Assembly: GCA_028292245.1 (NCBI GenBank)
Contig: JAQGMS010000288.1
Coordinates: forward strand, 1-46,091
Direction of reading: 5' to 3'
DNA from: Ramlibacter sp.
GTDB taxonomy: Bacteria > Pseudomonadota > Gammaproteobacteria > Burkholderiales > Burkholderiaceae_C
DNA: 46,091 bases
The notes beneath the pieces are model-generated. The model was not told the origin of the DNA and made no database searches. It worked only from the letters and a program-made list of their open reading frames with translations. Both the position numbers and the translations under genes were made by a program. This document shows positions 12,807-28,462 of this stretch, in pieces (positions within the stretch are counted from its first letter, which is position 1; every line of letters begins with the position of its first letter).

Positions 12807-12810
<4 letters not shown>

Positions 12811-13718
12811 GAGGTCCTCGCTGTTGATATGTTTGCCATGGATTGCCATACGGCGTCGAACACTTCCACGAACGCCCGCTCCGCCACCGACATAGGCCGG
12901 TAGCGGTTGCGGATGATCCGCACCGGCAATTTCTCGCTCGACTGGAACGGCCGCACTTCCAGCCCCGCCAGCAGCCCGCCCGCGATCGCCACCTGGTCCA
13001 CCACCGCGACGCCGACTCCCGCCTGCGCGAACCAGCAGGCCGTCGTGGAACTGGTGCACTCGAAGTCGCGATGCATCTTGTCGCCGGCGGCGCCGAATGC
13101 GCGGCGCAGCGTCTGGCCGAACGGCACGGTTTCCGGCGCCGAGATCACCCGTTCGCCGATCAGGTCGGCCGGCTTGATCAGTTTTTTTGCCGCCAGCCGG
13201 TGGTCGCTGCGCATCACGCAGGCCAGCCCGCATTGGTAGCTCTTGACGGTGGCCAGGTTGGGGTTGTCGTGCGGCGCCAGCGCGATGCCCAGGTGCGTGG
13301 ATCGGTCCAACAGCGTCTGGTTGATGATGTCGGGCGCGACCACCTGCACGCGGCATTGCAGCCGGGGAAATTGCTCGTACAGGCGGGCGATGGTTCTGGA
13401 AACCAGGTAGGGCGCGAGGCTCGCGGAACACACCAGCCGCAGCGTCGCCTGCGCCGGCTGCGCGAGTTCGCGCGAGGTGTCGCGCACTTTCTCGACGCCG
13501 GCCCACAGCAGGTCGATCTCGGCATACAGCTGCTGGGCTTCGGGCGTGGGGATCAGGCGGCCCTTCACGCGCTCGAACAGCACCAGGCCGCTGGCCTTGG
13601 CGGCTTGGGCCAGCACCTTGCTGATGGCCGGCGGCGAAACGTGCAGCAGCTCCGCGGCGCTGTTGACGCCGCCGGAAAACATCACGGCGCGAAACACTTC
13701 CATCTGCCGCAGGTTCAT
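12807..13718 (-). CDS. LysR-type regulator overlapping adhC
   Basis: A 303-residue LysR-family regulator. The helix-turn-helix lies in residues 1-60 ([23 protein letters not shown]), followed by the effector-binding domain with [14 protein letters not shown] and the GVGVAVVD loop. Its stop codon overlaps the adhC start (ATGA), so the two should be translated from one message. It is divergent from the Bug receptor operon starting at 13891 and probably controls it, given a TTAAC palindrome just upstream of its start. This arrangement puts a formaldehyde dehydrogenase and a catabolic operon under the same promoter region. The ligand is unknown. Confidence 0.9.
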
Positions 13719-13890: not shown

Positions 13891-14871
13891 ATGATCACCA
13901 GAAGGCGTTTTGCCGTCACCCTGGGTGCAGCTTCCGCTGTGCTCGCCGCCCCGGCGCTCCTGCGCGCCCAAACCAGCGGCAAGCCGCTCACGATCTTCCT
14001 CACGGTGCCGCCCGGCACTTCGTCCGACACGCTGGCGCGGATGCTCGGCGAGCGCCTGCGCGCCAAGCTCAATCGCACGGTGGTGGTGGAGTCGAAGTCC
14101 GGCGCCGGCGGCCTGGTGGCCATCCAGGCACTGCGCAACTACGACGCCGACGGCTCCTACCTGATGATGGCGCCCAATTCGGCGGTGTCGCTGCTGCCGC
14201 TGTTCGCCACCAAGCCGACCTTCGACTACGAGAAGGAACTGCAGACCGTCGTGGAGTGCGCCTCGGCGCCGATGGCGTTCACCGTCAACCCGGCCACCGG
14301 CGTCAACACGCTGGCCGAATACTTCGACTCGGTGCGCAAGGACCCCAAGCTCGGCTCCATCGGCGTGCCAAGCCCGGTCAGCATGGGCGCGCTGGTCATC
14401 CACCAGTTGGGCAAGCAATTGAACCTGCCGCTGCAAGCGATCCCGTATCGCGGCGGCTCACCGCTGCTGGCGGACCTGCTGGGCAACCAGATTCCCGCCA
14501 GCGGCTCGATCCTGCCCGATTACCTGGAGATGCACCGCGCCGGCAAGCTGAAGGTGCTGGCCCACGCGAGCGAGAAGCGCTCGGTGCTGGCGCCCGACAT
14601 TCCCACCATCACCGAAGCGGGCTACCCCGGCTATGTGGCGGTGACGTCTTTCGGCCTGTACGCCAAGGCGGGGCTGCCGGCCAATGTCGCCAACGACTAC
14701 GCGGCCATCGTCAACGAAGCGCTGGCCAGCGCGCCGGTGATCGAGGCGTTGCACAAGATGGGCCTGGTGCCCGTGGGCGGCACGCCGGCCGAGTTCCATC
14801 GCAAGGTGCTGGCTGACCGCGCGCGCTGGGCGCCGGTGATCAAGGAGTCCGGCATCAAGATGGACGCGTGA
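13891..14871 (+). CDS. Bug/TctC-family periplasmic receptor 1
   Basis: An extracytoplasmic solute receptor of the tripartite-tricarboxylate (Bug) family, 326 residues. The N-terminus MITRRRFAVTLGAASAVLAAP carries arginines before a hydrophobic run, possibly a twin-arginine or ordinary Sec signal. The mature part shows GTSSDTLARMLGERL, VVVESKSGAGG, the IPYRGGSPLLADLLGNQI segment and PVGGTPAEF, all usual in Bug receptors, which bind carboxylates through backbone amides. AGGAG at 13879-13883 lies seven bases before the ATG. It opens the operon running to 21700. No TctA/TctB membrane genes are nearby, so it may dock with a transporter encoded elsewhere or serve in sensing. Confidence 0.93.
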   Translation: MITRRRFAVTLGAASAVLAAPALLRAQTSGKPLTIFLTVPPGTSSDTLARMLGERLRAKLNRTVVVESKSGAGGLVAIQALRNYDADGSYLMMAPNSAVSLLPLFATKPTFDYEKELQTVVECASAPMAFTVNPATGVNTLAEYFDSVRKDPKLGSIGVPSPVSMGALVIHQLGKQLNLPLQAIPYRGGSPLLADLLGNQIPASGSILPDYLEMHRAGKLKVLAHASEKRSVLAPDIPTITEAGYPGYVAVTSFGLYAKAGLPANVANDYAAIVNEALASAPVIEALHKMGLVPVGGTPAEFHRKVLADRARWAPVIKESGIKMDA

Positions 14872-14929
14872 AGTGGAAGATATCCAGCAACGCGTCACGG
14901 CCATCGGCCTCACGGCCAAGGGCAACGGC

Positions 14930-15973
14930 ATGCAGTACCGGCATGTCGGCCGCTCCGGCCTGATCGCCTCGGCCATCGGCGTCGGCTGCTTCCCGTTCGG
15001 CGGCTACGTCAAGCAGGACGGCGTGCAGGCGGTGGTGAACCAGGCGCTCGACCTGGGCATCAACTACTTCGACACCGCCAACAGCTACGGCATCGGCAAG
15101 TCCGAGGAGGCGCTGGGCCTGGCCTTGCAAGGCAAGCGGCAGCAGGCCCTCATCGCCACCAAGTTCGGCAACCGCACCGGCGACGGCGCCAACGAGACCG
15201 GCGCGTCGCGCATCGCCATCATCAACGCCTGCGAGGCGAGCCTGAAGCGCCTGAAGACCGACTACATCGACCTGTACCAGTTGCACTGGCCGGATCACGA
15301 GACGCCGATCGAGGAAACCTTGCGCGCGCTGGACGATTTGGTGCGCGCCGGCAAGGTGCGCTACATCGGCGCGTCCAACCTGTTCGCCTGGGAGCTGTGC
15401 GAGGCGCACTTCACGGCCGAGAAACACGGCCTGTCGAAATTCATTTCGGCGCAGGACCACTACAACCTGCTGTACCGCGACATCGAGAAGCGCTTCGAGC
15501 CGTTCTGCGTGAAGTACGGCGTCGGCATGACGCACTACTTCCCGCTGGCCGGCGGCATGCTGGCCGGCGCCTACAAGCGCGGCCAATTGACGCCCGGCAC
15601 CCGCCAGGCCAACAACCCGAACACGGCGGCGTGGCAGTCCCCGCGCAATTGGGACGTGCAGGAAAAATTGCTCGCCTTCGCGCAGGAGCGCGACTGGACG
15701 CTGGCGCAGATGTCGCTGGCCTGGCTGCTCTCGCGTCCCGCCACCTTCACCGTGATCGCCGGCGCCGACAAGCCGCAGCATTTGCTGGACAACGTCAAGG
15801 CGCTGGAGATCCGCTTCACGCAAGAAGACCTGGCGGGGATCGACCGCATCACGCTGGTCGACGAGGACCGCACCGTGGCGCCGGTCTACCGCGGCCTGCG
15901 GCCGGAGAAGGTGCACGAATTCGAAGCCATGCAACTGGCGCGCGCCGGCGCGCCCAGCCGCGCGGCGCACTGA
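14930..15973 (+). CDS. Aldo/keto reductase
   Basis: A cytoplasmic NADPH-dependent oxidoreductase of the aldo/keto reductase superfamily (Tas/AKR11-like), 347 residues. The TIM-barrel start MQYRHVGRSGLIASAIGVG is followed by the catalytic tetrad regions: Asp and Tyr in YFDTANSYGIGKSEEALG, Lys in IATKFGNR and His in YQLHWPDHETPIEE. The nucleotide-binding end FTVIAGADKPQHLLDNV is present. I choose ATG 14930 because family members begin exactly here; a GTG at 14873, directly after the Bug stop, would add 19 residues with no recognisable match. It probably reduces a carbonyl or oxidises an alcohol on the operon's substrate, which is unknown. Confidence 0.88.
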   Translation: MQYRHVGRSGLIASAIGVGCFPFGGYVKQDGVQAVVNQALDLGINYFDTANSYGIGKSEEALGLALQGKRQQALIATKFGNRTGDGANETGASRIAIINACEASLKRLKTDYIDLYQLHWPDHETPIEETLRALDDLVRAGKVRYIGASNLFAWELCEAHFTAEKHGLSKFISAQDHYNLLYRDIEKRFEPFCVKYGVGMTHYFPLAGGMLAGAYKRGQLTPGTRQANNPNTAAWQSPRNWDVQEKLLAFAQERDWTLAQMSLAWLLSRPATFTVIAGADKPQHLLDNVKALEIRFTQEDLAGIDRITLVDEDRTVAPVYRGLRPEKVHEFEAMQLARAGAPSRAAH

Positions 15974-15998: not shown

Positions 15999-17657
15999 AT
16001 GCTAACGACAGTCAAGAACCAGCAGCTCACCGTCATGAACCCCGTGGGCTATCCGCCCAAGGTCAGCCGCAAGCAGCCCGCGCCGCGCTTGTCCAGCCTG
16101 GACGGCAAGACCATCTACCTGATCGACAGCCGCTTCGACGATTCGGTCGAACTGCTCAAGCAGGTGCAAGCCTGGTTCGCCGCGCGCATGCCGGGCGTGA
16201 AGACCGAGCTGCGTTCGATGGCCAGCTACTACGGCAAGGACGATCCGGAACTCTGGAACGAGATCAAGACGAAAGGCCATGCCGCGATCATCGGCGTGGG
16301 CCATTGCAGCACCTGTGCGCCGGCCGTGTCCACCCATGCGATCACGCTGGAGTCGCAATACAGCGTGCCGACCGTGGCGATCCACACCGACAAGTTCGTC
16401 AAGGTGGTGCAATCGGTCACCCGCATGGGCGGCCTGCCGCAGGCGCCGCTGGTGTTCGTGCCGCAGCCGGTGATGGGCAAGACCGAAGCCGAGCTGCGCG
16501 CCTATGTCGAAGGCGACGACCCCTACACCGGAAAACCGGTGATGAAGGAAATCGTCGATGCACTGACGCAGGGCCTGGCCGGCAATGCGCCCGGCGAGGA
16601 GCCCTATGCGCGCAGCACGCCGCGGCTGGAAGAGCCCGCCACCGAGGACGAATTGCGCGACCTGTTCGAGCGCAACGGCTGGACCGACCACATGCCCATT
16701 GTGCTGCCGACCGAGGAGCGTGTCGCCGCCATGCTGGCCGGCACCAGCCGCAAGCCCGACGAAGTGGTGGGCCGCATGCAACCGACGCCGAACCGGGGCC
16801 TGTGGGAATACACGGTGGAAAAGGTGGCGATCAACGCCGTGATGGCCGGCGCCAAGCCCGAATACTTCCCGATCATCCTGGCGCTGGCGGCGACGGAAAT
16901 TTCCGCGCGCCAGAGCACGTCGAGCTCGGCCTCGGTGATGACCGTCGTCAACGGCCCGATCCGCAATGAGGTCGGCATGAACTGCGGCATCGGCGCGATG
17001 GGCCCCTACAACCATGCCAACGCCACCATCGGCCGCGCCTACGGCCTGCTGTCGCAGAACCTGCAAGGCGGCTCGGTTCCCCATGAGACCTACATGGGCT
17101 CGATCGGCAACAGCTACACCTACAACGGCATCACCTTCGCGGAAAACGAGGAGCGCAGCCCCTGGGAGCCGCTGCACGTGCAGAAGGGCTTCGACAAGGA
17201 CGCCAGCACCGTCACCGTGTTCCACGGCTGCCGCTCCACCACCTTCGGGCTGGGCCTGCGCAAGGACCACTGGCGCGAGCACGTCAAGGACATGCTGCTG
17301 GGCACCGATGCGATCACCGCGCCGGTGCTGCTGCTGGACCCGATCACGGCGCGCCAGTTCATCGACCGCGGCGGCTTCGTCAAGAAGGCCGACCTGATCC
17401 GCTGGATCCACGAGACGGCCGAGATGCCGGCCGGCCGTTACTGGGACTTGCAACTGGTGCAGAACTACATCCACACCAAGGCGACGTTCGGCGAATCGCC
17501 CAAGAAGAAATACCTGGGCGTGCCCGACGACACGCTGGTGCGCATGTTCGAGGAAGCCGACATCAACGTGGTGGTGGTCGGCGGCGAGGCCAACGGCTAT
17601 TGGCAGATGATGGGCGCGCACCACAAGGCGACGGTCTCGGTGGACGAATGGCGCTGA
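15999..17657 (+). CDS. UGSC-family redox protein with Cys in place of selenocysteine
   Basis: A 552-residue protein I assign to the UGSC family, named for a selenocysteine-Gly-Ser-Cys motif in some members. The N-terminal domain (about residues 40-180) holds GVGHCSTCAPAVSTHAI with Cys103 and Cys106, the position of the U-x-x-C site. A larger C-terminal domain (about 205-552) contains conserved-looking EVGMNCGIGAMGPYNHANA, LQGGSVPHETYMG and VFHGCRSTTFGLG. No signal peptide or membrane segment is seen. ATG 15999 has AGGAG six bases upstream. A thioredoxin-reductase-like gene follows after three bases and is its likely electron donor. The reaction is not known to me; a reductive or thiol-based step on the operon's organic acid is an inference. 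Confidence 0.78.
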   Translation: MLTTVKNQQLTVMNPVGYPPKVSRKQPAPRLSSLDGKTIYLIDSRFDDSVELLKQVQAWFAARMPGVKTELRSMASYYGKDDPELWNEIKTKGHAAIIGVGHCSTCAPAVSTHAITLESQYSVPTVAIHTDKFVKVVQSVTRMGGLPQAPLVFVPQPVMGKTEAELRAYVEGDDPYTGKPVMKEIVDALTQGLAGNAPGEEPYARSTPRLEEPATEDELRDLFERNGWTDHMPIVLPTEERVAAMLAGTSRKPDEVVGRMQPTPNRGLWEYTVEKVAINAVMAGAKPEYFPIILALAATEISARQSTSSSASVMTVVNGPIRNEVGMNCGIGAMGPYNHANATIGRAYGLLSQNLQGGSVPHETYMGSIGNSYTYNGITFAENEERSPWEPLHVQKGFDKDASTVTVFHGCRSTTFGLGLRKDHWREHVKDMLLGTDAITAPVLLLDPITARQFIDRGGFVKKADLIRWIHETAEMPAGRYWDLQLVQNYIHTKATFGESPKKKYLGVPDDTLVRMFEEADINVVVVGGEANGYWQMMGAHHKATVSVDEWR

Positions 17658-17660
17658 ACC

Positions 17661-18587
17661 ATGCGTGAAGCCGACCTCGCGATCATCGGCGCCGGAGTGG
17701 CGGGCCTCACGGCCGCCGCTGCCGCCGCCAGGCAGGGCCTGCGGGTGCTGGTGATCGAGCGCATGGGGGCCGGTGGCCAGGTGATCAACGTCGAACAGAT
17801 CGACAACATGCCCGGTTTCGCGAAAGGCATTTCCGGCTTCGAGCTGGGACCGGAGTTGCAGGAGCAGGCAGAAACGGCGGGCGCGGAATTCATGCTGGAC
17901 ACCGTGCTGGGGCTCGCAGCGGGCCAGGACGGCCGGCACGTGCTGCGCTGCGAAGGCGAAGACGTGACCGCCCGTGCGGTGCTGGTCGCCTCCGGCTCGG
18001 CCCGCAAGAAACTCGGCGTGCCGGGCGAGGACCTGCTGGAAGGGCGCGGCGTGTCGCATTGCGCGTCGTGCGACGGCCCGTTGTTTCGCAAGCAAGCGGT
18101 GTGCGTCGCCGGCGGCGGCGATTCGGCGTTCGGCGAGGCAGCGGTGCTGGCCGGGCATGCCAGCCACGTCACCATCGTGTTCCCCGAGGACGAGCCGCGC
18201 GCGCAGCCTTACCTGCTGGACGCGGTGCACGGCCTGCCCAACGTCGCGTGGGTGGCGAAGTCGCGTGTCGCCGAAATCATCGGCGATTCGACGGGCGTCA
18301 CCGCCGTGCGGGTGGAAGCATCGGACGGCTCGGCGCGCGAGCTGCCGGTGCAGGGCGTGTTCGTCTACGCGGGGCTGCAACCCGATACGGGATTTCTCGG
18401 CGGCGCCGTGCAGCTGGACACGTCCGGGCGCATCGAGACCGACGAAGCCCTGCGCACTTCGGTGCCCGGCATCTTCGCGGCGGGTGACATACGCGGCGGC
18501 GCCAGCTACCTGCTGGTCACCGCGGCGAGCGATGGCGAGGCGGCCGCGCTGTCGGCCTGCCGCTACTTGAACGAACAACCGGCCTAG
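17661..18587 (+). CDS. Thioredoxin-reductase-like FAD-dependent oxidoreductase
   Basis: A 308-residue flavoprotein of the low-molecular-weight thioredoxin reductase family. It has the FAD motif IIGAGVAGLTAAAAAA, GGQVINVEQIDNMPGF, a redox-active pair in HCASCDGP (Cys134 and Cys137), the NAD(P) motif VAGGGDSAFGEA and the late FAD motif GIFAAGDIRGG. The NADPH-phosphate arginine motif (HRR-x3-R) is not obvious, so NADH use is possible. It begins three bases after the UGSC-family gene, so a dedicated reductase role is likely. Pairing of this reductase type with a CxxC partner is well known for AhpF and TrxB systems; this particular partner is not a thioredoxin. Confidence 0.88.
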   Translation: MREADLAIIGAGVAGLTAAAAAARQGLRVLVIERMGAGGQVINVEQIDNMPGFAKGISGFELGPELQEQAETAGAEFMLDTVLGLAAGQDGRHVLRCEGEDVTARAVLVASGSARKKLGVPGEDLLEGRGVSHCASCDGPLFRKQAVCVAGGGDSAFGEAAVLAGHASHVTIVFPEDEPRAQPYLLDAVHGLPNVAWVAKSRVAEIIGDSTGVTAVRVEASDGSARELPVQGVFVYAGLQPDTGFLGGAVQLDTSGRIETDEALRTSVPGIFAAGDIRGGASYLLVTAASDGEAAALSACRYLNEQPA

Positions 18588-18609: not shown

Positions 18610-19584
18610 ATGATGATGAAGAGACGCCAACTCTGCGCTGCCGCGCTGCTGGTGCTGGCGCCGATGGTGGCCGGCGCGCAGGCACCCGATGCCTGGCCCG
18701 CCCGGCCGGTGCGCCTGATCGTTCCCTTCTCGGCCGGCGGCGCCACCGACATCATCGCGCGCTTGCTGGCGCAGCAACTGACCACGGTGTGGGGCCAGCC
18801 GGTCATCGTCGACAACAAGCCGGGCGCCGGTACGGTGATCGGCACCGACGCCATCGCCAAGGCTGCGCCGGATGGCTACACGATGGGCCTGGTGGTGTCG
18901 GCGCACACCATCAATCCGAGCCTGCGCGACAAGCTGCCTTACGACACGCTGAAGGACTTCGCGGCGGTGACCCAGATCGGCATGCAGCACATGGTGATCG
19001 CGGCCAACCCATCGTTCCCCGCCAACAACATCGCCGAACTGATCGCGTTGGCCAAGAAGAGCCCCGGCACGATTACCTATGCGTCGTCGGGCGCGGGAAC
19101 GTCGTTGCACCTCGGGTTCGAATTGCTCAAGGCCCGCACTGGTGCCGAGATCACCCATGTGCCCTACAAGGGCGGCGCACCGGCGCAGCAGGACGTGATG
19201 GGCGGCCAGGTACCGGTGCTGGTGGACATCTATCACAGCACCGCGCCCTTCATCAAGAGCGGCAAGCTGAAGGCGCTGGCCCTGTTCAGCCCGCAACGCA
19301 CGCCGCTGATCCCGGGCGTTCCCGTCATCGCCGAAACCATCCCCGGCGTTTCCGCCGTGAGCGTCATCGGCATCGCCGCGCCGGCCGCCGTGCCGCCGGC
19401 CCTGGTTGCGCGGATCAGCGCGGACATGGCCAAGGTGATCAAGTCGCCCGACTTCGCGGCCAAGCTCGAGGCCATGGGTGTCGAGCCCGTCGGTTCCACG
19501 CCGGCGCAGTTCGACGCCCTGATCCGCAGCGACATCGCGCGCTGGGCACCGATCGTCAAGTCGTCCGGCGCCACCGCCGAGTGA
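18610..19584 (+). CDS. Bug/TctC-family periplasmic receptor 2
   Basis: A 324-residue solute receptor with a clear Sec signal peptide (MMMKRRQLCAAALLVLAPM, cut after GAQA). The mature part has the hallmark PVRLIVPFSAGGATDIIARLLA, PVIVDNKPGAGTVIGTDAIAK, AAPDGYT, HVPYKGGAPAQQDVMGGQV and PVGSTPAQF segments. AAGGAG six bases before the first of three tandem ATGs fixes the start. It is only distantly similar to the receptor at 13891, so the operon encodes receptors of different specificity. It lies between the flavoprotein and the TauD-like gene in the same direction. No membrane transport partner is encoded nearby. Confidence 0.94.
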   Translation: MMMKRRQLCAAALLVLAPMVAGAQAPDAWPARPVRLIVPFSAGGATDIIARLLAQQLTTVWGQPVIVDNKPGAGTVIGTDAIAKAAPDGYTMGLVVSAHTINPSLRDKLPYDTLKDFAAVTQIGMQHMVIAANPSFPANNIAELIALAKKSPGTITYASSGAGTSLHLGFELLKARTGAEITHVPYKGGAPAQQDVMGGQVPVLVDIYHSTAPFIKSGKLKALALFSPQRTPLIPGVPVIAETIPGVSAVSVIGIAAPAAVPPALVARISADMAKVIKSPDFAAKLEAMGVEPVGSTPAQFDALIRSDIARWAPIVKSSGATAE

Positions 19585-19600
19585 AACAGGAATCCATGCC

Positions 19601-20704
19601 ATGAACACTTACGAACACAACTCCCAGTCATTCGCGTGGAAGGCTTCGTCCTTCAAGAGTTCGGCCGACTACACGCTGCAGCTTTCGCCCGGCGAGAGCG
19701 CCGAGCTGTTGGCGGCCGTGCGGGCGCTGAAGAATATCGACGCGCCGCAGCAGTACGACAGGCAATCCTTTGCCCTGCCGACGCTGGCACCGCGCCTGGC
19801 CGCTGCTTACGATGAAGTACGCGCGGGCCGCGGCTTCGTCGTCCTGCGTGGCCTGCCCGCGGAGGGCGCGACGGTGCAGGAATACATCGCGGCGGTGTGG
19901 GCCGTGGGCACCCATTTCGGCGGGGCGCTATCGCAGAACACCAGTGGCGACCTGATCGGCCATGTGCTCGACGCGAGCGCCGAGGACCCGACGCCGCGCA
20001 TGTACCGCAGCAACCTGGAGCTGCGGCCGCACAACGACATCACGGCGATGATCTCGCTGGCCTGCTGGCACAAGTCGAAGGCCGGCGGTGCATCGGTGAT
20101 CGTCAGCGCGGTGACCGTGCACGACGAACTGCGGCGCACCGAGCCCGAAGTGCTGGAGCCGCTGTATCGCGGCTTCTACTACCACCAGGTCGGCGAGGAA
20201 GCGCCGGGCGAACCGCCCGTCACGCGCCATCGAGTCCCGATGTTCGCCGTTCGCAACGGGCAGCTCAGCTCGCGCTACCTGCGCTCCAACCTGGTGGCCG
20301 GGCACAAGGTCCAGGGCACGCCGCTGACCGCGGAAGAAATCGCCGCCATGAACCGGTTCGACCAGGTGGCGACGGCGCCGGAAAACCGGCTGGCCTTCTT
20401 CCTGGAGCGCGGCGACATGATCGTGATCAACAACTACACGGTGATGCACGCGCGCACGTCGTTCCAGAATTTTCCCGAACCCGAGCGCAAGCGCCACCTG
20501 GTTCGCCTGTGGCTGGACCAGCAGGGCTTTCGCGACGCGCCGCCCGAATACAACTTCCACGAGACCAACGGCGTGCCGCGGCGCGAGGGCAAGAGCGCGA
20601 CGCTGAATTTCAAGAGCCTGTATGCCGACGACCCGGTGGCGACCGGCGGCATCCCGGACCTGAAGGTGACCGACGAACTGGCGGCGCGCGCCGGCCAGGT
20701 GTGA
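19601..20704 (+). CDS. TauD/TfdA-family Fe(II)/2-oxoglutarate-type dioxygenase
   Basis: A 367-residue protein of the TauD/TfdA (clavaminate synthase-like) family. The iron ligands appear as His144 and Asp146 (LRPHNDITAM) and His283 (NNYTVMHARTSF), with Arg302 (RHLVRLWL) placed to bind 2-oxoglutarate. Such enzymes hydroxylate C-H bonds, often releasing sulfite, an amine or a carbonyl from the substrate. The ATG at 19601 follows CAGGA by about nine bases; a second ATG six bases upstream is out of frame. It overlaps the third Bug gene by four bases (GTGA). Together with the aldo/keto reductase it suggests oxidative attack on the imported acid. Confidence 0.88.
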   Translation: MNTYEHNSQSFAWKASSFKSSADYTLQLSPGESAELLAAVRALKNIDAPQQYDRQSFALPTLAPRLAAAYDEVRAGRGFVVLRGLPAEGATVQEYIAAVWAVGTHFGGALSQNTSGDLIGHVLDASAEDPTPRMYRSNLELRPHNDITAMISLACWHKSKAGGASVIVSAVTVHDELRRTEPEVLEPLYRGFYYHQVGEEAPGEPPVTRHRVPMFAVRNGQLSSRYLRSNLVAGHKVQGTPLTAEEIAAMNRFDQVATAPENRLAFFLERGDMIVINNYTVMHARTSFQNFPEPERKRHLVRLWLDQQGFRDAPPEYNFHETNGVPRREGKSATLNFKSLYADDPVATGGIPDLKVTDELAARAGQV

Positions 20705-21700
20705 AAGCGCTCGCCCCGATGCGTACCCGCCAGGCACTGAAGACGCTGCTGGCGATGGCGCTCCTGCCCTGCGTCATCGCCGCGGCGGCGGCAGCCGATT
20801 TCCCCATCCCCAACAAGCCGATCCGCCTCGTGGTCGGCTTCCCCGCCGGCGGCGGCACCGACATCCAGGCGCCAGGTCGGCATCCAGTTGACGGGGCTGC
20901 TCGGCGTGCCGGTCGTCATCGACAACAGGCCGGGCGCGGGCACCATGCTCGCGGCGATGGAAGTCGCCAAGTCCGCACCCGACGGCCACACGCTGCTGTA
21001 CACGCCGGCATCCACCATGGCGCAATTGCCGCACACGCTCTCGGCCGTGAAGTACGACCCGTTCAAGGATTTCACGCCGGTAGCCATCGGCGCGCTCGGC
21101 CCGCTGGTGCTGGTGGTGCACAAGTCGGTGCCCGGCAACAGCGTGCGCGACGTGATCGCCTATGCCAAGGCCAACCCCGGCAAATTGAACTACGTGTCGC
21201 AAGGCGTGGGCACGTCGGCCCACATCTACGGCGAGATCTTCGCCAAGCAGGCCGGCATCGACATCGTCCACGTGCCCTACAAGGGCGCCAATGACGTGGC
21301 CAAGGACTTCATCTCCGGCCGCGTGCAATTGCAGTTCGCCTCCTCGTCGGCCGCGGTGGCGCTGGCCAAGAGCGGCGAAGTGCGGATGATGGCGGTGGTC
21401 GCGCCCAAGCGCAGCAGCCTGTTCCCGGAACTGCCGACGATGGCCGAGCAGGGCGTCGGCAACATGGACATCGACAGCTGGATCGGTTTCTTCGGTCCGG
21501 CCGGAATGGCGCCGCAGACCGTGGCCAAGCTCAACGACGCGCTGTCGCAGGCGCTGAAGACCGCGAAGGTGCGCGACGATTTCCGCAGCGGCGGCGTTGA
21601 GGCGCAGACCTCCACGCCCGAGCAGTTCGGCGCGATCGTGCGCGACTCCTACAACCAATGGGGCCGAGTGCTCGCGCAGATCGGATTCAAGAAGGAGTAG
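20701..21700 (+). pseudogene. Bug/TctC-family receptor 3, disrupted by a frameshift
   Basis: The first part (GTG 20701 or, more likely, ATG 20719) encodes a signal peptide and IRLVVGFPAGGGTDIQA, then the frame breaks at about 20868-20873. From there the plus-one frame continues with QVGIQLTGLLGVPVVIDN, PDGHTLLYTP, HVPYKGANDVAKDFISG and a normal end at 21700. Restoring one GC in the run ggcgcca would give GCG CGC CAG and rejoin the reading frame, so a two-base deletion in a GCGC run is the simplest cause. An internal ATG at 20888 would give a protein without export signal. It could be a real pseudogene, a phase-variable site or an assembly error. Its end overlaps the convergent efflux gene by 14 bases. 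Confidence 0.85.
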
Positions 21701-23090
21701 CGGCTTCCCAGCCGCCGCCCAGCGCGCGGATCAGGGCCACGGTCGCCTGGTACTGGCTGGAACGCACCTGCAGCGCCTGCCGGCGGTTGCGCAGTTCGCT
21801 GCGGCGGGCATCCAGCAGTTCGAGCTGGCTGTCCAGCCCGTTGCGGTAGCGCGATTCCGACAACACCGTCGCGCGCGTCGCCGAGCTGACGGCCCGGGCC
21901 TGCGCCTGCGACTGCTCCTGCAGCAGCCGCAGCGACGACAACTGGTCTTCCACTTCCCTGAACGCGACCAGCACCTGGCCGCGGTAGCCGGCCAGCGCGA
22001 CGTCGAGCTGTGCTTGCGCGCCTTGCACGCCGGCCTCGCGCCGGCCGCCGTCGAAGATCGGCAGCGAGAGCAGCGCGCCGACGCCCCAGGCGCGGGCCGA
22101 CCACTTGAACAAATCGCCCAGCTCGGGTGACGCGAAACCACCGGCCGCGGTAAGCGAGAGACTCGGGAACCATGCGGCGCGGGCCACGCCCGCGCGCGCC
22201 TGCGCGGCCAGGATGCCGCTTTGCGCGGCTGAGACGTCGGGCCGGCGCGCCAGCACCGTGGCCGGAATGCCGGCGGGAATCAGCGGCAGCGCCGTCGACC
22301 AATCGCCCGCGTCTAACGAGAAGTTCGACGCCGCGTCGCCCACCAGCACCGCCAGCGCGTGCTCGAGCTCGGCGCGGCGGCGGTCCAGCGCCAGCGCTTC
22401 CGATTCGGTGGCCGCCAGTTCGGTTTCCACCCGCACCACGTCGAGCTCGGCGATGTCGCCGGCCTGGTGGCGCCGTTTCGTCAGGCGCAAGGTGTTCTGG
22501 TAGGCGCCCACCGTCTCGCGCACGATGGCCCGTTCGCTGTCGATCGCCCGCAATTGGAGGTAGGTTTGCGCGGTCTCGGCCTGCACCAGCAGGCGCGTGC
22601 TTTGCAACAGCGCTTCGCGCGCCTGCGCGTCGAGCGAGGCGGCGTCGCTGGCGCGTGCCAGCCGGCCGAACAGGTCGATCTCGTACGAGAGATTGGCGCC
22701 CGCCGTCGTCAGCGTGGTGGGCGTGGCGCCGCCCACAGTATTGGCGCCGGCTTGCCGCGCGGCGCTCGCGCCGATGCCGATCTGCGGCGCGCGGTCGGCA
22801 TCGGTGCTGCGCGCCAGAGCACGGGCCTGTGCCAGCCGGGCGGCGGCTTCCTGGATGCTGGTGTTGTTGGCGCCGGCGCGCTCGACCAGTTCGTCCAGCA
22901 CCGGGTCGGCAAACACCTTCCACCAGGTGCCGCGGCCGCGCGCTTCGGCGGGCGCTGCAATGGTCCAGCGCGGGCCGGCTTCCTTGAATTGGGCCGGCGG
23001 CTGGACAGGCGCGGGCAGCTCGGCGGGCGCCGTCGCGCAGCCGGCCAGCACCAGCGCGGCGAGCAAAGGAACAACGTGCAATTTCTTCAT
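21687..23090 (-). CDS. RND efflux outer-membrane lipoprotein (OprN/OpcM type)
   Basis: The outer-membrane channel of the tripartite pump, 467 residues. The signal peptide ends in a lipobox, LVLAGCATAP, so the mature protein is lipid-anchored. The body has two TolC-like repeats, each with long alpha-helices rich in Ala, Gln and Arg (for example AARLAQARALARS and LTKRRHQAGDIAELDVV), plus the SYEIDLFGR motif typical of NodT-family channels. ATG 23090 is chosen because GGAGA sits just upstream and the lipoprotein signal begins there; an ATG at 23102 overlapping the pump stop would add four residues. It is the last gene of the efflux operon and overlaps the convergent Bug pseudogene. Confidence 0.94.
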   Translation of the reverse strand: MKKLHVVPLLAALVLAGCATAPAELPAPVQPPAQFKEAGPRWTIAAPAEARGRGTWWKVFADPVLDELVERAGANNTSIQEAAARLAQARALARSTDADRAPQIGIGASAARQAGANTVGGATPTTLTTAGANLSYEIDLFGRLARASDAASLDAQAREALLQSTRLLVQAETAQTYLQLRAIDSERAIVRETVGAYQNTLRLTKRRHQAGDIAELDVVRVETELAATESEALALDRRRAELEHALAVLVGDAASNFSLDAGDWSTALPLIPAGIPATVLARRPDVSAAQSGILAAQARAGVARAAWFPSLSLTAAGGFASPELGDLFKWSARAWGVGALLSLPIFDGGRREAGVQGAQAQLDVALAGYRGQVLVAFREVEDQLSSLRLLQEQSQAQARAVSSATRATVLSESRYRNGLDSQLELLDARRSELRNRRQALQVRSSQYQATVALIRALGGGWEAATPS

Positions 23091-23101
23091 GGGAATCTCC
23101 A

Positions 23102-26100
23102 TCAATTCTTCAGCGGCGCGGCCGGCACGGGCCGCGCCGATGCGCCGCCGCCGCCAGAGCTTTCGGGGTGCGGCACTTCGCCGTGCAATTTCAGCGGCCG
23201 GTTGCCGGTGAGGGCACGCAGCGCCACATAGAACACCGGCGTGAGGAACAGCCCGAACGCCGTGACGCCGATCATCCCGGCGAACACCGCGATGCCCATC
23301 GCCTGCCGCATCTCGGCGCCAGCGCCGGTGGACAGCACCAGCGGCAGCACGCCCATGACGAAAGCCAGCGAGGTCATCAGGATCGGGCGCAGCCGCAGCC
23401 GCGCCGCCTCCATCGCCGCCTGGACCGGCGTGCGTCCGGCAAACTCCAGCTCGCGTGCGAACTCGACGATCAGGATCGCGTTCTTGGCCGACAGCCCCAC
23501 CAGCACCATCAGCCCGATCTGGGTGAAGACGTTGTTGTCGCCGCGTGACAGCCAGACGCCGGTCATCGCCGCCAGCAGGCCCATCGGCACGATGAGGATG
23601 ATCGACAGCGGCAAGGTCAGGCTCTCGTACAGCGCGGCCAGCACCAGGAACACCAGCAGGATCGCGAGCGGGAACACCAGCGCCGCCGAATTGCCGGCCA
23701 GGATTTCCTGGTAGGTGAGCTCGGTCCATTCGAAGCTGATGCCAGCGGGCAGCGTCTCCGCGGCGATCCGCTTCACCGCGTCCTGCGCCTGGCCCGACGA
23801 ATAGCCGGGTGCCGGCCCGCCGTTGATGTCGGCCGACAGGTAGCCGTTGTAGCGCATGGCGCGCTCGGGTCCGAAGCTCGGCTTCACGTTCATCAGCGCC
23901 GACAGCGGCACCATCTCGCCGGTGGCCGAACGCACCTTCAGCAGGCCAATGTCTTCGGCGCGGGCGCGATACGGCGCGTCGGCCTGCACCCGGACCGAGT
24001 AGGTGCGGCCGAACTTGTTGAAGTCGTTGGCGTAGAGGCTGCCCAGGTAGATCTGCATGGTGTCGAACACGTCGGTCACCGCGACGCCGAGCTGGCGCGC
24101 CTTGGTGCGGTCGATGTCGGCGTACAGCTGCGGCACGTTCAGCTGGAAGCTGGAGAGCAGGCCGGCCAGCTCCGGCGCCTGGTACGCCTTGGCCATGAAG
24201 GCCTTGAGCGCGCCGTCCAGCGCCTCGTAGCCGAGCGAACCGCGGTCTTCCAGTTGCAACTTGAAGCCGCCGGTCGTGCCCAGGCCTTGCACCGGTGGTG
24301 GCGGGAACATCATGACGAAGGCATCCTGCAATTGCCCGAACTGCGCGTTCAATTGCCCGGCGATCGCGCCGGCGCTCTGGTCGGCGCCGCGCCGCTCGTC
24401 AAAGGGCTTGAGCGTCGCGAAGACGATGCCCGCGTTGGAGCTGTTGGTGAAGCCGTTGATCGACAAGCCCGGGAACGCCACCGCGTGCTCGACGCCGGGC
24501 TGCTTGAGCGTGATCTCGCTCATGCGGCGGATCACGTCCTCGGTGCGGTCCAGCGTGGCGCCATCGGGCAACTGGGCAAAGCCGATCAGGTACTGCTTGT
24601 CCTGCGCCGGCACGAAGCCGTGCGGCACCAGTTTGAACAGGCCGAAGGTGGCGGCGGCCAGCGCCAGGTAGATGCCCAGCATCAGGGTCTTGCGCGAGAC
24701 CACGGTCTTCACGCCCCGCGTGTAGCCGCTGCCTGCGCGGCCGAAGGCGCGGTTGAAGGCGGCGAAGAAGCGGCCGAACACCCGGTCCATGCCGCGCGTC
24801 AGCGCATCCTTGGGCGCATCGTGGCTCTTGAGCAGCAGCGCGGCCAGGGCCGGCGACAGCGTCAGGGAATTGATCGCCGAGATCACCGTGGAGATCGCGA
24901 TGGTCACCGCGAATTGCCGGTAGAACTGGCCGGTCAGGCCGCTGATGAAGGCCAGCGGCACGAACACGGCCACCAGCACCAGGGCGATCGCGATGATCGG
25001 CCCCGAGACTTCGCGCATGGCCTGGTAGGTGGCCTCGCGCGGCGTCCGGCCGGCCTCGATGTTGCGTTCCACGTTCTCCACCACCACGATGGCATCGTCC
25101 ACGACGATGCCGATCGCCAGCACCAGCCCGAACAGGCTGAGCGCGTTGATCGAAAAGCCGAGCACGTGCAGCACCGCGAACGTTCCCACGACTGAGATCG
25201 GCACCGCCAGCAACGGGATAATGGAGGCGCGCCAGGTCTGCAGGAACAGGATCACCACCAGCACCACCAGCAGGATGGCTTCGAGCAGGGTGTGGATGAC
25301 CGACTCGATGGAAGAGCGCACGAACTGCGTGGGGTCGTAGACGATGTCGTACTCCACGCCTTCGGGCAGCGACTGCTTGAGTTCGGCCATGGTGGCGCGG
25401 ACGTTGTCGGAGATCTGGATGGCGTTGGAGCCGGGGGCCGCGAAGATGCCCAGCGCCACCGCGTCCTTGTTGTCCAGCAGGGAGCGCAGGGCATAGCCCG
25501 ATGCGCCCAATTCGATGCGCGCGACGTCGCGCAGCCGCGTCACGGCGCCGTCGGCTCCGGACTTGACGATGATGTCGCCGAACTCCTCTTCGGTCTGCAG
25601 GCGCCCTTGCGCATTGACCGACAGCTGCAGGTCCACGCCCTTGATGCCGGGCGATGCGCCGACGACCCCGGCCGCGGCCTGCACGTTCTGCTCGCGGATC
25701 GAGCGCACCACGTCGCTGGCGGAGAGGCCGCGCTGCGCCACCTTCTGCGGATCGAGCCAGACCCGCATCGAGTAGTCGCCGGCGCCGAACAGCTGGACGT
25801 CGCCGACGCCCTGCACGCGCGTCAGCCGGTCCTTGACGTTCAGCAGCGCGTAGTTGCGCAGGTACGTCATGTCGTAGCGGTTGTTGGGCGACAGCAGGTG
25901 GACCACGATGGTGATGTCGGTCGAGCTCTTCACGGTGGACAGGCCCAGGCGCCGCACTTCTTCCGGCAGCCGCGGCTCGGCCTGGGCGACGCGGTTTTGC
26001 ACCAGTTGCTGGGCCTTGTCGGGGTCGGTGCCGAGCTTGAAGGTGACGTTGAGCGTCATCAGGCCGTCGGTGGTGGCCTGGCTGCTCATGTACAGCAGGC

Positions 26101-26326
26101 CTTCGACGCCGTTGATCGCTTCCTCCAGCGGCGTCGCCACCGTCTCGGCGATCACCTTGGGGTTGGCGCCGGGGTAGGTGGCGCGCACCACGATCGAGGG
26201 CGGCACGACCTCGGGATATTCCGAGACCGGCAGGCCGCGCAGCGCGATCAGGCCCGAGATGAAGATCAGCAGCGACAGCACGCCGGCGAAGATCGGCCGG
26301 TCGATGAAGAATTTCGACAAGTTCAT
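23102..26326 (-). CDS. RND multidrug efflux transporter (MexF/CeoB/BpeF-like)
   Basis: The inner-membrane proton-driven pump of the HAE1 family, 1074 residues with the expected 12 membrane segments and two large periplasmic domains. The start MNLSKFFIDRPIFAGVLS is standard, and the proton-relay aspartates are in GIVVDDAIVVVEN near residue 405. The lengths and motifs fit the MexF branch more than AcrB or MexB. Its ATG overlaps the adaptor gene stop by four bases and it is followed closely by the channel gene. By analogy with the Burkholderia ceo and bpeEF loci, substrates could include chloramphenicol, trimethoprim and quinolones; this is inference from gene order and not read from the binding pocket. 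Confidence 0.96.
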   Translation of the reverse strand: MNLSKFFIDRPIFAGVLSLLIFISGLIALRGLPVSEYPEVVPPSIVVRATYPGANPKVIAETVATPLEEAINGVEGLLYMSSQATTDGLMTLNVTFKLGTDPDKAQQLVQNRVAQAEPRLPEEVRRLGLSTVKSSTDITIVVHLLSPNNRYDMTYLRNYALLNVKDRLTRVQGVGDVQLFGAGDYSMRVWLDPQKVAQRGLSASDVVRSIREQNVQAAAGVVGASPGIKGVDLQLSVNAQGRLQTEEEFGDIIVKSGADGAVTRLRDVARIELGASGYALRSLLDNKDAVALGIFAAPGSNAIQISDNVRATMAELKQSLPEGVEYDIVYDPTQFVRSSIESVIHTLLEAILLVVLVVILFLQTWRASIIPLLAVPISVVGTFAVLHVLGFSINALSLFGLVLAIGIVVDDAIVVVENVERNIEAGRTPREATYQAMREVSGPIIAIALVLVAVFVPLAFISGLTGQFYRQFAVTIAISTVISAINSLTLSPALAALLLKSHDAPKDALTRGMDRVFGRFFAAFNRAFGRAGSGYTRGVKTVVSRKTLMLGIYLALAAATFGLFKLVPHGFVPAQDKQYLIGFAQLPDGATLDRTEDVIRRMSEITLKQPGVEHAVAFPGLSINGFTNSSNAGIVFATLKPFDERRGADQSAGAIAGQLNAQFGQLQDAFVMMFPPPPVQGLGTTGGFKLQLEDRGSLGYEALDGALKAFMAKAYQAPELAGLLSSFQLNVPQLYADIDRTKARQLGVAVTDVFDTMQIYLGSLYANDFNKFGRTYSVRVQADAPYRARAEDIGLLKVRSATGEMVPLSALMNVKPSFGPERAMRYNGYLSADINGGPAPGYSSGQAQDAVKRIAAETLPAGISFEWTELTYQEILAGNSAALVFPLAILLVFLVLAALYESLTLPLSIILIVPMGLLAAMTGVWLSRGDNNVFTQIGLMVLVGLSAKNAILIVEFARELEFAGRTPVQAAMEAARLRLRPILMTSLAFVMGVLPLVLSTGAGAEMRQAMGIAVFAGMIGVTAFGLFLTPVFYVALRALTGNRPLKLHGEVPHPESSGGGGASARPVPAAPLKN

Positions 26327-27537
26327 GAAGCCGCCTTCGCGTCGGCCTTGGCTTCCATGATCACGGCCTGCGGCTGCACCAGCGAGCCGGGCCGCACGCG
26401 CTGCAGGCCGTTGACGACAATGCGCTCACCGGCCTTCAGCCCGCCCTTGACGACGCGCAGACCGTTGACCGATGCGCCCAGCGTGACTTCGCGGTACTCG
26501 GCCTTGTTGTCGGCGCCCACCACCAGCACGAACTTCTTGTTCTGGTCGGTGCCCACCGCGCGTTCGTTCACCAGCAGCGCGCGCACCGTCTGCGCCTGGC
26601 CCATGCGGATGCGGGCGAACTGGCCCGGCATCAGGGCGCCGTCCTTGTTCTCGAACGCCGCGCGCACCCGCACCGTGCCGCTCCTGGCGTCGACCTGGTT
26701 GTCGATCAATTGCAGGTGGCCCTGGTACGGCGTGTCGCTGGAGGCCGCCGTCCCCATCTGCACCGGGATGCGTTCGATCAGCGCGCGGGCGCTCGAGCCG
26801 CCCGGCATGTTGGCCAGGGCCCGGGTGACGATCTGTTCGTCGGTGTCGAAGCTGGCGTAGATCGGGCTGACCGAGACCAGCGTCGTCAACACCGGCGCGC
26901 CGGGGCCGGCCGCCACCAGGTTGCCGGTGGTGATCTCCAGCTTGCCGATGCGGCCGGCCACGGGTGCGCGCACCTGCGTGTAGCCGAGGTTCAGCCGCGC
27001 GGTTTCGCGCTGCGCCTGCGCGGCGCGCAGGTTGGCGTCGGCTTCGCGCATCGCGTTCAAGCGGTCTTCGTACTCGCGCTGCGAGATCGCCCGGTCTTCC
27101 CACAGGCGCTGGGCCCGCGCATGGTCGCTCTGGGCGTGCGTGACGCGCGCCTGCGCGGCGGCGACCTGCGCTTCGGCGCGCTCGGTTTCAGCGGCGTAGG
27201 GGGCCGGGTCGATGGTGATGAGCAGGTCGCCCTTGTGCACCAGCGCGCCTTCGCGGAAATGGATCGACTGCACGGCACCGGCCACGCGCGAACGCACGTC
27301 CACGCGTTCCACCGCTTCCAGGCGGCCCGAGAACTCATCCCAAGCGGTGACTTCGCTTTCGCTCACGGCCGCGACCGATACCGGCGTGGCGGGCGGCGCA
27401 CTTGCGTTCGCAGTGGCCCGCGCCGTGGGTCCGCCGATGCCGAAGAGGGCCGAGGCGATTGCCGTGAGCGCGGTGAGGATACCCACCGAGGCCCACAGCC
27501 GCCGGTCGCGTGTCGTCTTGATGTTATTGGTGGTCAT
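26323..27537 (-). CDS. RND efflux periplasmic adaptor (MexE/CeoA/BpeE-like)
   Basis: The membrane-fusion protein that links pump and channel, 404 residues. An N-terminal membrane anchor or signal (residues 13-40, LWASVGILTALTAIASALF) is followed by the lipoyl half-motif VRSRVAGAVQSIHFREGALV, a helical hairpin (residues about 105-160), the second lipoyl half QVRAPVAGRIGK, and beta-barrel and membrane-proximal domains. No lipobox Cys is present. ATG 27537 is preceded by AAGGAAG at good distance; an open frame upstream lacks coding character. It overlaps the pump gene by four bases and lies 79 bases downstream of the lipase-like gene, matching the ceoR-llpE-ceoA-ceoB-opcM order. Confidence 0.95.
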   Translation of the reverse strand: MTTNNIKTTRDRRLWASVGILTALTAIASALFGIGGPTARATANASAPPATPVSVAAVSESEVTAWDEFSGRLEAVERVDVRSRVAGAVQSIHFREGALVHKGDLLITIDPAPYAAETERAEAQVAAAQARVTHAQSDHARAQRLWEDRAISQREYEDRLNAMREADANLRAAQAQRETARLNLGYTQVRAPVAGRIGKLEITTGNLVAAGPGAPVLTTLVSVSPIYASFDTDEQIVTRALANMPGGSSARALIERIPVQMGTAASSDTPYQGHLQLIDNQVDARSGTVRVRAAFENKDGALMPGQFARIRMGQAQTVRALLVNERAVGTDQNKKFVLVVGADNKAEYREVTLGASVNGLRVVKGGLKAGERIVVNGLQRVRPGSLVQPQAVIMEAKADAKAAS

Positions 27538-27570
27538 GGTTTCTTCCTTTTTTGGGGTGAGTCGGTCCTG

Positions 27571-27589
27571 CCCGGCGCGGTACGCCGGG
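27571..27589. other. Intercistronic hairpin between lipase-like gene and adaptor
   Basis: A perfect seven-base stem, CCCGGCG and CGCCGGG, with a five-base loop sits in the 79-base gap inside the efflux operon. An alternative outer pairing CTGCCC/GGGCAG (27568-27573 with 27593-27598) would compete with it. No T-run follows on the minus strand. It could lower read-through or stabilise the downstream message. Confidence 0.4.
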
Positions 27590-27616
27590 TTCGGGCAGTA
27601 GGGGAGGGCCGCGGGC

Positions 27617-28462
27617 CTAGGAGGGTGGCGGGGTGGCCGGGTAGAAGAATTCGCGCAAGTGGCGCTGGACGCCGGCCGCGCAGGGGCACTCATCCGGCGC
27701 CGCGTCCGCCAGCGAATCGGGCCAGCCGGTTCGATTGCCCAGCACGGCACTGGTGACAGCGATGCCCGCATCGCGCAGGCGCTGCGCGTAGGCCAGCGCT
27801 TCGTCGCGCATCGGGTCGTCCTGGCCGGTCAGCACCAGGGCGGGCGGCAGGTCCACCAGGCGGGTGGCCTTGCCCGGCACGGCATAGGGATGCTCGGCGT
27901 CCATCGGCCCGCGCAGGTACTGCTGCCAGCCGTCGGCCCACTTGCAGCCGGTGTTGCATTCCATCGTCTCGCGCAGCGATGCCGTGCCGACGCACGGGTC
28001 GAGCATTGGCGCCACCAGGATCTGCCCGGCCAGCGGTGGATGGGCGCGGTCGCGCGCCACCAGCGCCACGGCCGCCGCGAGGTTGCCGCCGGCCTCATCG
28101 CCAGCTAAGTAAACGCGCGCATCCTTGCCGGCAAGTTTGTTGCGCTGCTTGTAGATCCACTCCAGCGCCGCGTAGCCGGCTTCCACCGCTTCGGGGAAAC
28201 GATGCGCCGGCGCCAGCGGATAAGCGAGCGAAACCACGACGGCGTCCACCTGCGCGAGCAGCCGCGCCATGCAGGCGCCGCTGTCCAGGTCGCCGCTGAC
28301 GAACGCGCCGCCATGGAAGTGCAGCACCAGGGGCGCCACCACGCCGGCGCGCCGCTGGCCGTAGATGCGCGCTTGCAAGGGCGCGCGCCCGGCCACGGCG
28401 ATCGTGGTATCGGTCTCCACGATCGGCGGTGCAATGGTCAGGGATGCCGGGTGAGTTGACAT
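27617..28462 (-). CDS. LlpE-like alpha/beta-hydrolase homologue lacking the catalytic serine
   Basis: A 281-residue protein with the fold of the hormone-sensitive-lipase family: oxyanion motif HFHGGAFVSGD, VSLAYPLAPAHRFPEAVEA and the acid segment TGQDDPMRDEALAYAQRL. The nucleophile elbow, normally GDSAGG, reads LAGDEAGGNLA, with Glu123 (GAG at 28096-28094) in place of Ser. The usual C-terminal His is also not seen. It is therefore unlikely to be an active esterase. It heads the efflux operon, the place held by llpE (lipase-like protein) in Burkholderia ceo and bpeEF loci. ATG 28462 is chosen since the family start lies there; an open frame runs 33 codons further upstream across the regulatory region. 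Confidence 0.85.
   Translation of the reverse strand: MSTHPASLTIAPPIVETDTTIAVAGRAPLQARIYGQRRAGVVAPLVLHFHGGAFVSGDLDSGACMARLLAQVDAVVVSLAYPLAPAHRFPEAVEAGYAALEWIYKQRNKLAGKDARVYLAGDEAGGNLAAAVALVARDRAHPPLAGQILVAPMLDPCVGTASLRETMECNTGCKWADGWQQYLRGPMDAEHPYAVPGKATRLVDLPPALVLTGQDDPMRDEALAYAQRLRDAGIAVTSAVLGNRTGWPDSLADAAPDECPCAAGVQRHLREFFYPATPPPS

Follow-up and report, generated by a model that had tools for sequence, protein, structure and literature searches.

A fused UGSC protein and its linked thioredoxin-reductase-like flavoprotein in Ramlibacter sp.: a candidate two-part reductase distantly related to GrdB and PrdB

Genes at the locus

We analysed a 46,091-nucleotide contig of Ramlibacter sp. (JAQGMS010000288.1; hereafter the window) carrying a UGSC-family gene followed by a gene for a thioredoxin-reductase-like FAD/NAD(P)H protein (TR). 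The UGSC gene (15999..17657, + strand) encodes a 552-residue protein in which a UGSC domain is fused to a second, partner domain. Its ATG start has an in-frame TTG alternative 18 bases upstream, and near relatives align from an identical MLTT. The UGSC domain (residues 12-171; 16032..16511, +) forms the first third of the protein and scored 95.4 bits with PF24696 (cut-off 25). Both the score and the U/C-x-x-C motif place the protein in this family, and the hidden Markov model search thereby confirmed the assignment proposed in an earlier note made from the sequence alone. The motif itself, Cys103-Ser-Thr-Cys106, lies at 16305..16316 (+). The partner domain covers approximately residues 206-552 (16614..17654, +; the boundary is approximate). 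The TR gene (17661..18587, +) encodes 308 residues; its ATG is separated from the fusion stop by 3 bases, and its redox motif Cys134-Ala-Ser-Cys137 (HCASCDGPLF) is found at 18060..18071 (+). The gene layout is therefore as the earlier note had described it.

The window protein and its relatives share with the UGSC family of NF041046/PF24696 the C/U-x-x-C motif and the exchange of selenocysteine (Sec) and Cys, whereas the window copy is a Cys form and a fused variant, scoring 55.2 bits with the NCBIfam equivalog NF041046, under its cut-off of 125. The structure model predicted a Rossmann/flavodoxin-like fold for the UGSC domain; a thioredoxin-like fold has been proposed in print. A fusion of UGSC to a domain called ‘Unknown_1’ was noted in the 2008 Global Ocean Sampling study (PMC2398784), and a 2026 review ranks UGSC among families with largely uncharacterised functions (PMC13188914), in line with the earlier note's view that no reaction is established. 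In the literature located by our search, as far as its text was accessible, we found no report of an obligate partner, a TR linkage, a relation to GrdB/PrdB or an assayed UGSC reaction. Already known were the family itself, its Sec forms and one UGSC fusion; the partner subunit, the relation to GrdB/PrdB and the TR linkage appear to be new.

The partner domain

The C-terminal part of the window protein is a co-occurring partner subunit that is fused to the UGSC domain here. Where the UGSC gene is short, this part is as a rule encoded by a separate neighbouring gene. We searched one sample of 398 Pseudomonadota genomes both with PF24696 and with A2, a profile of the C-terminal part; each matched five genomes, and they were the same five. 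The two parts were fused in the window's genome and encoded by separate adjacent genes in the other four. We also met each part alone: a short UGSC gene lacking a partner on a 7.9-kb contig (L099), and the partner only in one Haladaptatus plasmid stretch. Searches against Pfam and NCBIfam assigned the partner domain to no family.

The partner alignment (63 rows, three of them duplicates) has near-invariant residues that include D230, P237, G319, P320, N341, G345, R346, E382, E384, H393 and G397. None of its near-invariant positions is a cysteine, and the ‘further conserved-looking cysteines’ of the earlier note did not hold up: among the 44 full-length homologues of alignment A1 (eight UGA-bearing rows written as Cys), Cys329 was kept in 38 and Cys411 in 30. 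Cys103, Ser104 and Cys106 were each present in 44/44, so it is the redox pair that is conserved and not the additional cysteines. The loop 356-359 read QGGS in all A1 rows, and it belongs to a poorly predicted stretch of the model (predicted local distance difference test, pLDDT, <50 for residues 355-369).

The Cys103/Cys106 motif and its selenocysteine forms

One scan of genome contigs yielded the 46 UGSC loci on which the counts per locus below are based. Nine copies among them had one in-frame stop each, precisely at the codon of Cys103. With copies from other genomes added and known duplicates removed, codon 103 was TGA in 23 copies, each followed by x-x-Cys, and TGC or TGT in 38, which bears out the earlier claim that the window motif occupies the Sec position of its relatives. 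Moreover, the 45 bases after codon 103 formed more stable hairpins in the TGA copies (mean -15.7 versus -9.7 kcal/mol in the Cys copies; Mann-Whitney p = 2e-7, only indicative since the rows are related and not independent), many of them with a GGTC apical loop. SelB genes were located near Sec copies at L037, L039, L043 and L093, and tRNA-Sec genes at L043 and L093. In a set of 32 genomes, SelB scored above the cut-off in nine of the 11 that have Sec copies, versus 7 of the 21 in which only Cys copies were seen; no SelB was found in the window's own genome, which is 85.6% complete. The exchange of Sec and Cys at position 103 is established at the level of sequence.

Two Cys-type UGSC fusion genes, L042:7001-8639 and L155:6962-8630, contained a frame break, and L042 also bore a UGA copy on the opposite strand.

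Relation to GrdB and PrdB

GrdB and PrdB (PF07355) are the selenoprotein B subunits of the reductases that act on glycine, betaine, sarcosine and D-proline. Comparison of the UGSC profile with a profile of nine PF07355 relatives by hhalign gave 94% and E = 1.4e-7 (as a single comparison) over 76 columns, with Cys103 paired with the Sec and Cys106 with the Cys of GrdB/PrdB. When both cysteines were masked, E was 1.7e-5. The comparison took in this GrdB-like set (GRDB) and, as controls, 19 neighbour families; the best control was the TR family, which reached E = 1.7e-3 by way of its CxxC, and the best of 40 column shuffles gave 0.063. By profile comparison, the UGSC domain is distantly related to the Sec-containing half of GrdB/PrdB.

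Like GrdB/PrdB, the UGSC system appears to be a two-part enzyme with UxxC that is linked to a thiol-reducing system. The two differ in that the UGSC partner shows no conserved Cys from which a pyruvoyl group could form and does not look like GrdE or PrdA, UGSC proteins often have Cys in place of Sec, and no thioredoxin gene was found in the 66 UGSC loci searched, although the Arthrobacter plasmid has one. The UGSC hosts also include groups which we take to be aerobic, such as Burkholderiales and haloarchaea. As described in PMC10298544, GrdB/PrdB chemistry consists of an attack on the C-N bond, after which the selenoether is cleaved by a thiolate. According to PMC10838667, the GrdB-like FarB/FarE of Cloacibacillus has been proposed to reduce fluoroacetate, and one genome has eight grdB genes. 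It resembles what we describe here in being a GrdB-like enzyme of two components that has a transporter of its own, and in the many grdB paralogues per genome, whereas FarB/FarE, as described there, belongs to an anaerobe, is GrdB proper and has an operon with a radical SAM protein and no thioredoxin reductase. In the genome of locus L034 (G554), we observed five short GRDB/PrdB-like genes, all with UGA at the motif.

A UxxC or CxxC motif together with a thioredoxin-reductase-like partner is also typical of thiol (selenol) oxidoreductases acting on S-S, S-O or O-O bonds, as in disulfides, sulfoxides, thiosulfonates and peroxides. In such an enzyme the partner would give specificity, TR would recycle the pair and no carbon-X bond would be broken. 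Phosphosulfolactate-synthase-like genes in Arthrobacter (127.5 bits, under the cut-off of 280) and Natrinema, and DsrE, TusA and cysteine desulfurase genes near a Paracoccus copy, would fit this account. So would the MetE-like genes near UGSC at L029 (by Pfam), L030, L039 and L082 (by clustering), hinting at methyl or sulfur chemistry. We nevertheless consider it rather unlikely. The domain is predicted to be Rossmann-like, its profile relative is GRDB, although only GRDB and the 19 neighbour families were compared, and the diverse transporters and up to 13 paralogues in a small genome suit catabolism better than detoxification.

The flavoprotein TR and its linkage to UGSC

TR matched the whole of the TrxB model TIGR01292 with 284.9 bits, under the equivalog cut-off of 343.45, and PF07992, the pyridine-nucleotide-disulfide oxidoreductase family, with 142.2 bits. 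The housekeeping TrxB of the genome is encoded at another place and scored 382.6 bits, above that cut-off. Judged from its sequence, TR is a paralogue distinct from this TrxB and lies in another clade, which agrees with the earlier suggestion of a dedicated reductase. Although the CxxC at 134/137 is shared with TrxB, TR reads CASCDGPLF where TrxB reads CATCDGFFY, and Leu consequently takes the position of E. coli Phe142 (numbering matched by eye), a residue that contacts thioredoxin in E. coli TrxB as described in PMC2896474. SHCASCD(G/A)P was present in 22 of the 29 TR rows near UGSC (window included), and its CD(G/A)P end, unlike TrxB, in 27.

TR-like genes (tblastn score of 100 bits or more) occurred in 28/46 loci, within ~7 kb of UGSC and upstream, downstream or divergent. 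As a rough yardstick, TIGR01292 has six matches of 100 bits or more in the 5.8 Mb of the window's own genome, so that one would be expected in <2% of 16-kb stretches. The association is non-random, as the earlier note had supposed. No thioredoxin gene was found in the 46 + 20 loci searched. On the Arthrobacter plasmid, the gene order trxB-trxA-partner-UGSC ties the UGSC/partner pair directly to thiol reduction.

TR also gave a distant match to MerA (65.6 bits, cut-off 454), and metal binding has been suggested for some uncharacterised selenoproteins (PMC13188914). A thiol protein handling Hg, As or Se, with TR as its MerA-like reductase, would further agree with a cation-efflux gene (L090) and an MgtE transporter (L088) near UGSC copies of genome G536, and with a zinc-ABC-type binding protein near the copy of Acidovorax T1. 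These metal-related neighbours are single cases; family searches of chosen neighbours revealed no mercury or arsenic genes, and organic-solute receptors, aldo/keto reductases (AKR), CoA-transferases and dehydrogenases are commoner near UGSC. We regard metal handling as very improbable.

Plasmid-borne and multiplied copies

Twenty-four of 72,556 plasmid records matched, and the stretches of 16 were examined. A UGSC domain with C/UxxC and the partner was present in 13 of the 16 (two of these with UGA), and TR-like genes in six. The carriers take in haloarchaea and Actinomycetota, and on the IncP plasmid of Acidovorax sp. T1 a UGA copy lies in a stretch that also has IS1071 and IS91 elements. The gammaproteobacterial metagenome-assembled genome (MAG) G536, the 2.2-Mb genome of locus L033, contained 13 UGSC paralogues on contigs C8, C12, C24, C38, C41, C49, C65, C74, C89 and C94. 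Each of the 13 had one in-frame TGA, and the motif variants were USTC, USSC, UGSC, UHGC, UNGC, UGVC, USIC and USLC.

Proposed mechanism

The sequences establish the architecture, the co-occurring partner, the linkage to TR and the profile homology to GrdB/PrdB, whereas disulfide reduction by TR, substrate binding by the partner, the C-X chemistry and the substrate are parts that we infer. In the scheme that we propose, Cys103 (Sec in many relatives) would be the catalytic thiol at a helix start and Cys106 the resolving thiol. The C-terminal domain would bind and activate the substrate, presumably an organic acid imported by a Bug-type system (elsewhere by ABC, TRAP or MFS uptake). Cys103 would attack this substrate, displacing or opening a C-X bond by analogy with GrdB/PrdB, and Cys106 would then free the reduced product, leaving a Cys103-Cys106 disulfide. 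TR, using NAD(P)H and FAD, would reduce the disulfide, directly in the window system and via thioredoxin in the Arthrobacter version, so that the net result would be a two-electron reduction. AKR would act on a carbonyl intermediate. The redox part, that is, attack by Cys103, resolution by Cys106 and re-reduction by TR, is probably correct. Reductive C-X cleavage appears to be its likeliest version, because of the chemistry of GrdB/PrdB and the precedent of FarB/FarE. For the complete reading of the 552-residue protein, namely a fused two-part reductase that cleaves a C-X bond of an imported organic acid in the manner of GrdB/PrdB and is recycled by TR, we see a little less than an even chance.

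Several observations weigh against the complete reading. The GRDB set consisted of nine short environmental PF07355 relatives (7/9 above the cut-off) and not of biochemically studied GrdB, and with matches admitted up to E = 1 the hmmscan search listed PF24696 alone for the window protein, with PF07355 not matched. Neither a GrdE/PrdA-like pyruvoyl subunit nor GrdA was identified (the partner was not directly compared with GrdE/PrdA by profile), and no known fold was recognised in the partner domain. The MAGs G536 and G534 carry UGA copies, yet gave no SelB match. The pairing with TR is not strictly fixed: 18/46 loci had no TR in the DNA examined, and while 12 of these have <2.6 kb on at least one side, the other six (L001, L005, L021, L028, L033 and L040) have >5 kb on both. 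TR was seen in only one of ten G536 stretches. In the TR tree, the TR of L095 and the second TR of L046 formed a clade with the genome's housekeeping TrxB (100/99) and are therefore ordinary TrxB types; the 27 signature TRs may or may not be one clade, several deep branches being weak.

Finally, the fused homologues on Sporomusa and Vibrio plasmids (L161:5329-7053 and L162:5362-7047) read Met-Gly-Thr-Ser (MGTS) where CxxC is expected. They adjoin aconitase X and DUF126 genes, with no TR within either stretch. The UGSC scaffold can thus exist without the redox pair, and these homologues are perhaps a non-redox branch. They lend something to the idea of non-reductive catalysis, in which Cys103 is a covalent nucleophile or the partner performs a lyase or hydrolase step, and TR merely rescues Cys103-Cys106 from oxidation in aerobic cells. 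The polar near-invariant partner residues D230, N341, R346, E382, E384 and H393 would be compatible with this. However, C/U-x-x-C was kept in all 61 UGSC domains (Sec written as Cys) of a collection that does not include the MGTS pair, a Sec next to a Cys usually points to redox chemistry during turnover, and a dedicated reductase would seem costly for rescue alone. We judge non-reductive catalysis to be unlikely.

Returning to reductive C-X cleavage, a broader and more tentative reading, to which we give clearly less than an even chance, is that the family is a widespread oxygen-tolerant counterpart of the glycine and proline reductases. Its enzymes would have two components, often fused, with Cys and Sec interchangeable, and, driven by their own flavoprotein, would cleave C-X bonds in a wide range of organic acids taken up by aerobic bacteria and haloarchaea; the family is carried on plasmids (one copy in a stretch with IS1071) and has reached 13 paralogues in one small genome. 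If so, aerobes would have enzymes for reductive C-X cleavage of a kind until now known chiefly from anaerobes, possibly of use for degrading halogenated or otherwise substituted acids. With these results UGSC becomes a defined, testable system that has a co-occurring partner, a candidate for the electron donor, a catalytic pair predicted from sequence and a mechanistic model derived from GrdB/PrdB.

Neighbouring genes

In Burkholderiales relatives, the core order is LysR-Bug1-AKR-UGSC-TR-Bug3. The window has a divergent LysR-type regulator (12807..13718, -; named by reading and clustering), with close orthologues in 8/46 loci at the threshold of E 1e-15 used for neighbours. Next come Bug1, a TctC-type solute receptor of the core operon (13891..14871, +; PF03401), and AKR (14873..15973, +; PF00248), which was present in 10/46 loci (eight of Burkholderiales type, L010 and L031). 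Bug3, another solute receptor (20888..21700, +), has orthologues that come after TR in the relatives and is a core member displaced here by 18610..20704 (+), where Bug2 (18610-19584) and a TauD-like dioxygenase gene (19601-20704) look like an insertion outside the core. Of the context that the earlier note had emphasised, Bug uptake and AKR therefore stand, whereas the TauD-like gene had orthologues in 0/46 loci. Elsewhere, the uptake genes near UGSC vary (TctA/TctC, ABC, TRAP and MFS). At L011, L012 and L041, the conserved neighbours were histidine phosphatase, DapB-like, OMP-decarboxylase-family and unknown c19 genes.

At 20705-20900 of the window, the half of Bug3 with the signal peptide appears to be out of frame with the open reading frame (ORF) 20888-21700, an apparent frame break that may be real or an assembly error. 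Further downstream, at 21687-27771 (-), a reading of the ORF list alone suggests a large RND-efflux-like membrane ORF (1074 residues), an adaptor-like ORF and an outer-membrane-factor-like ORF.

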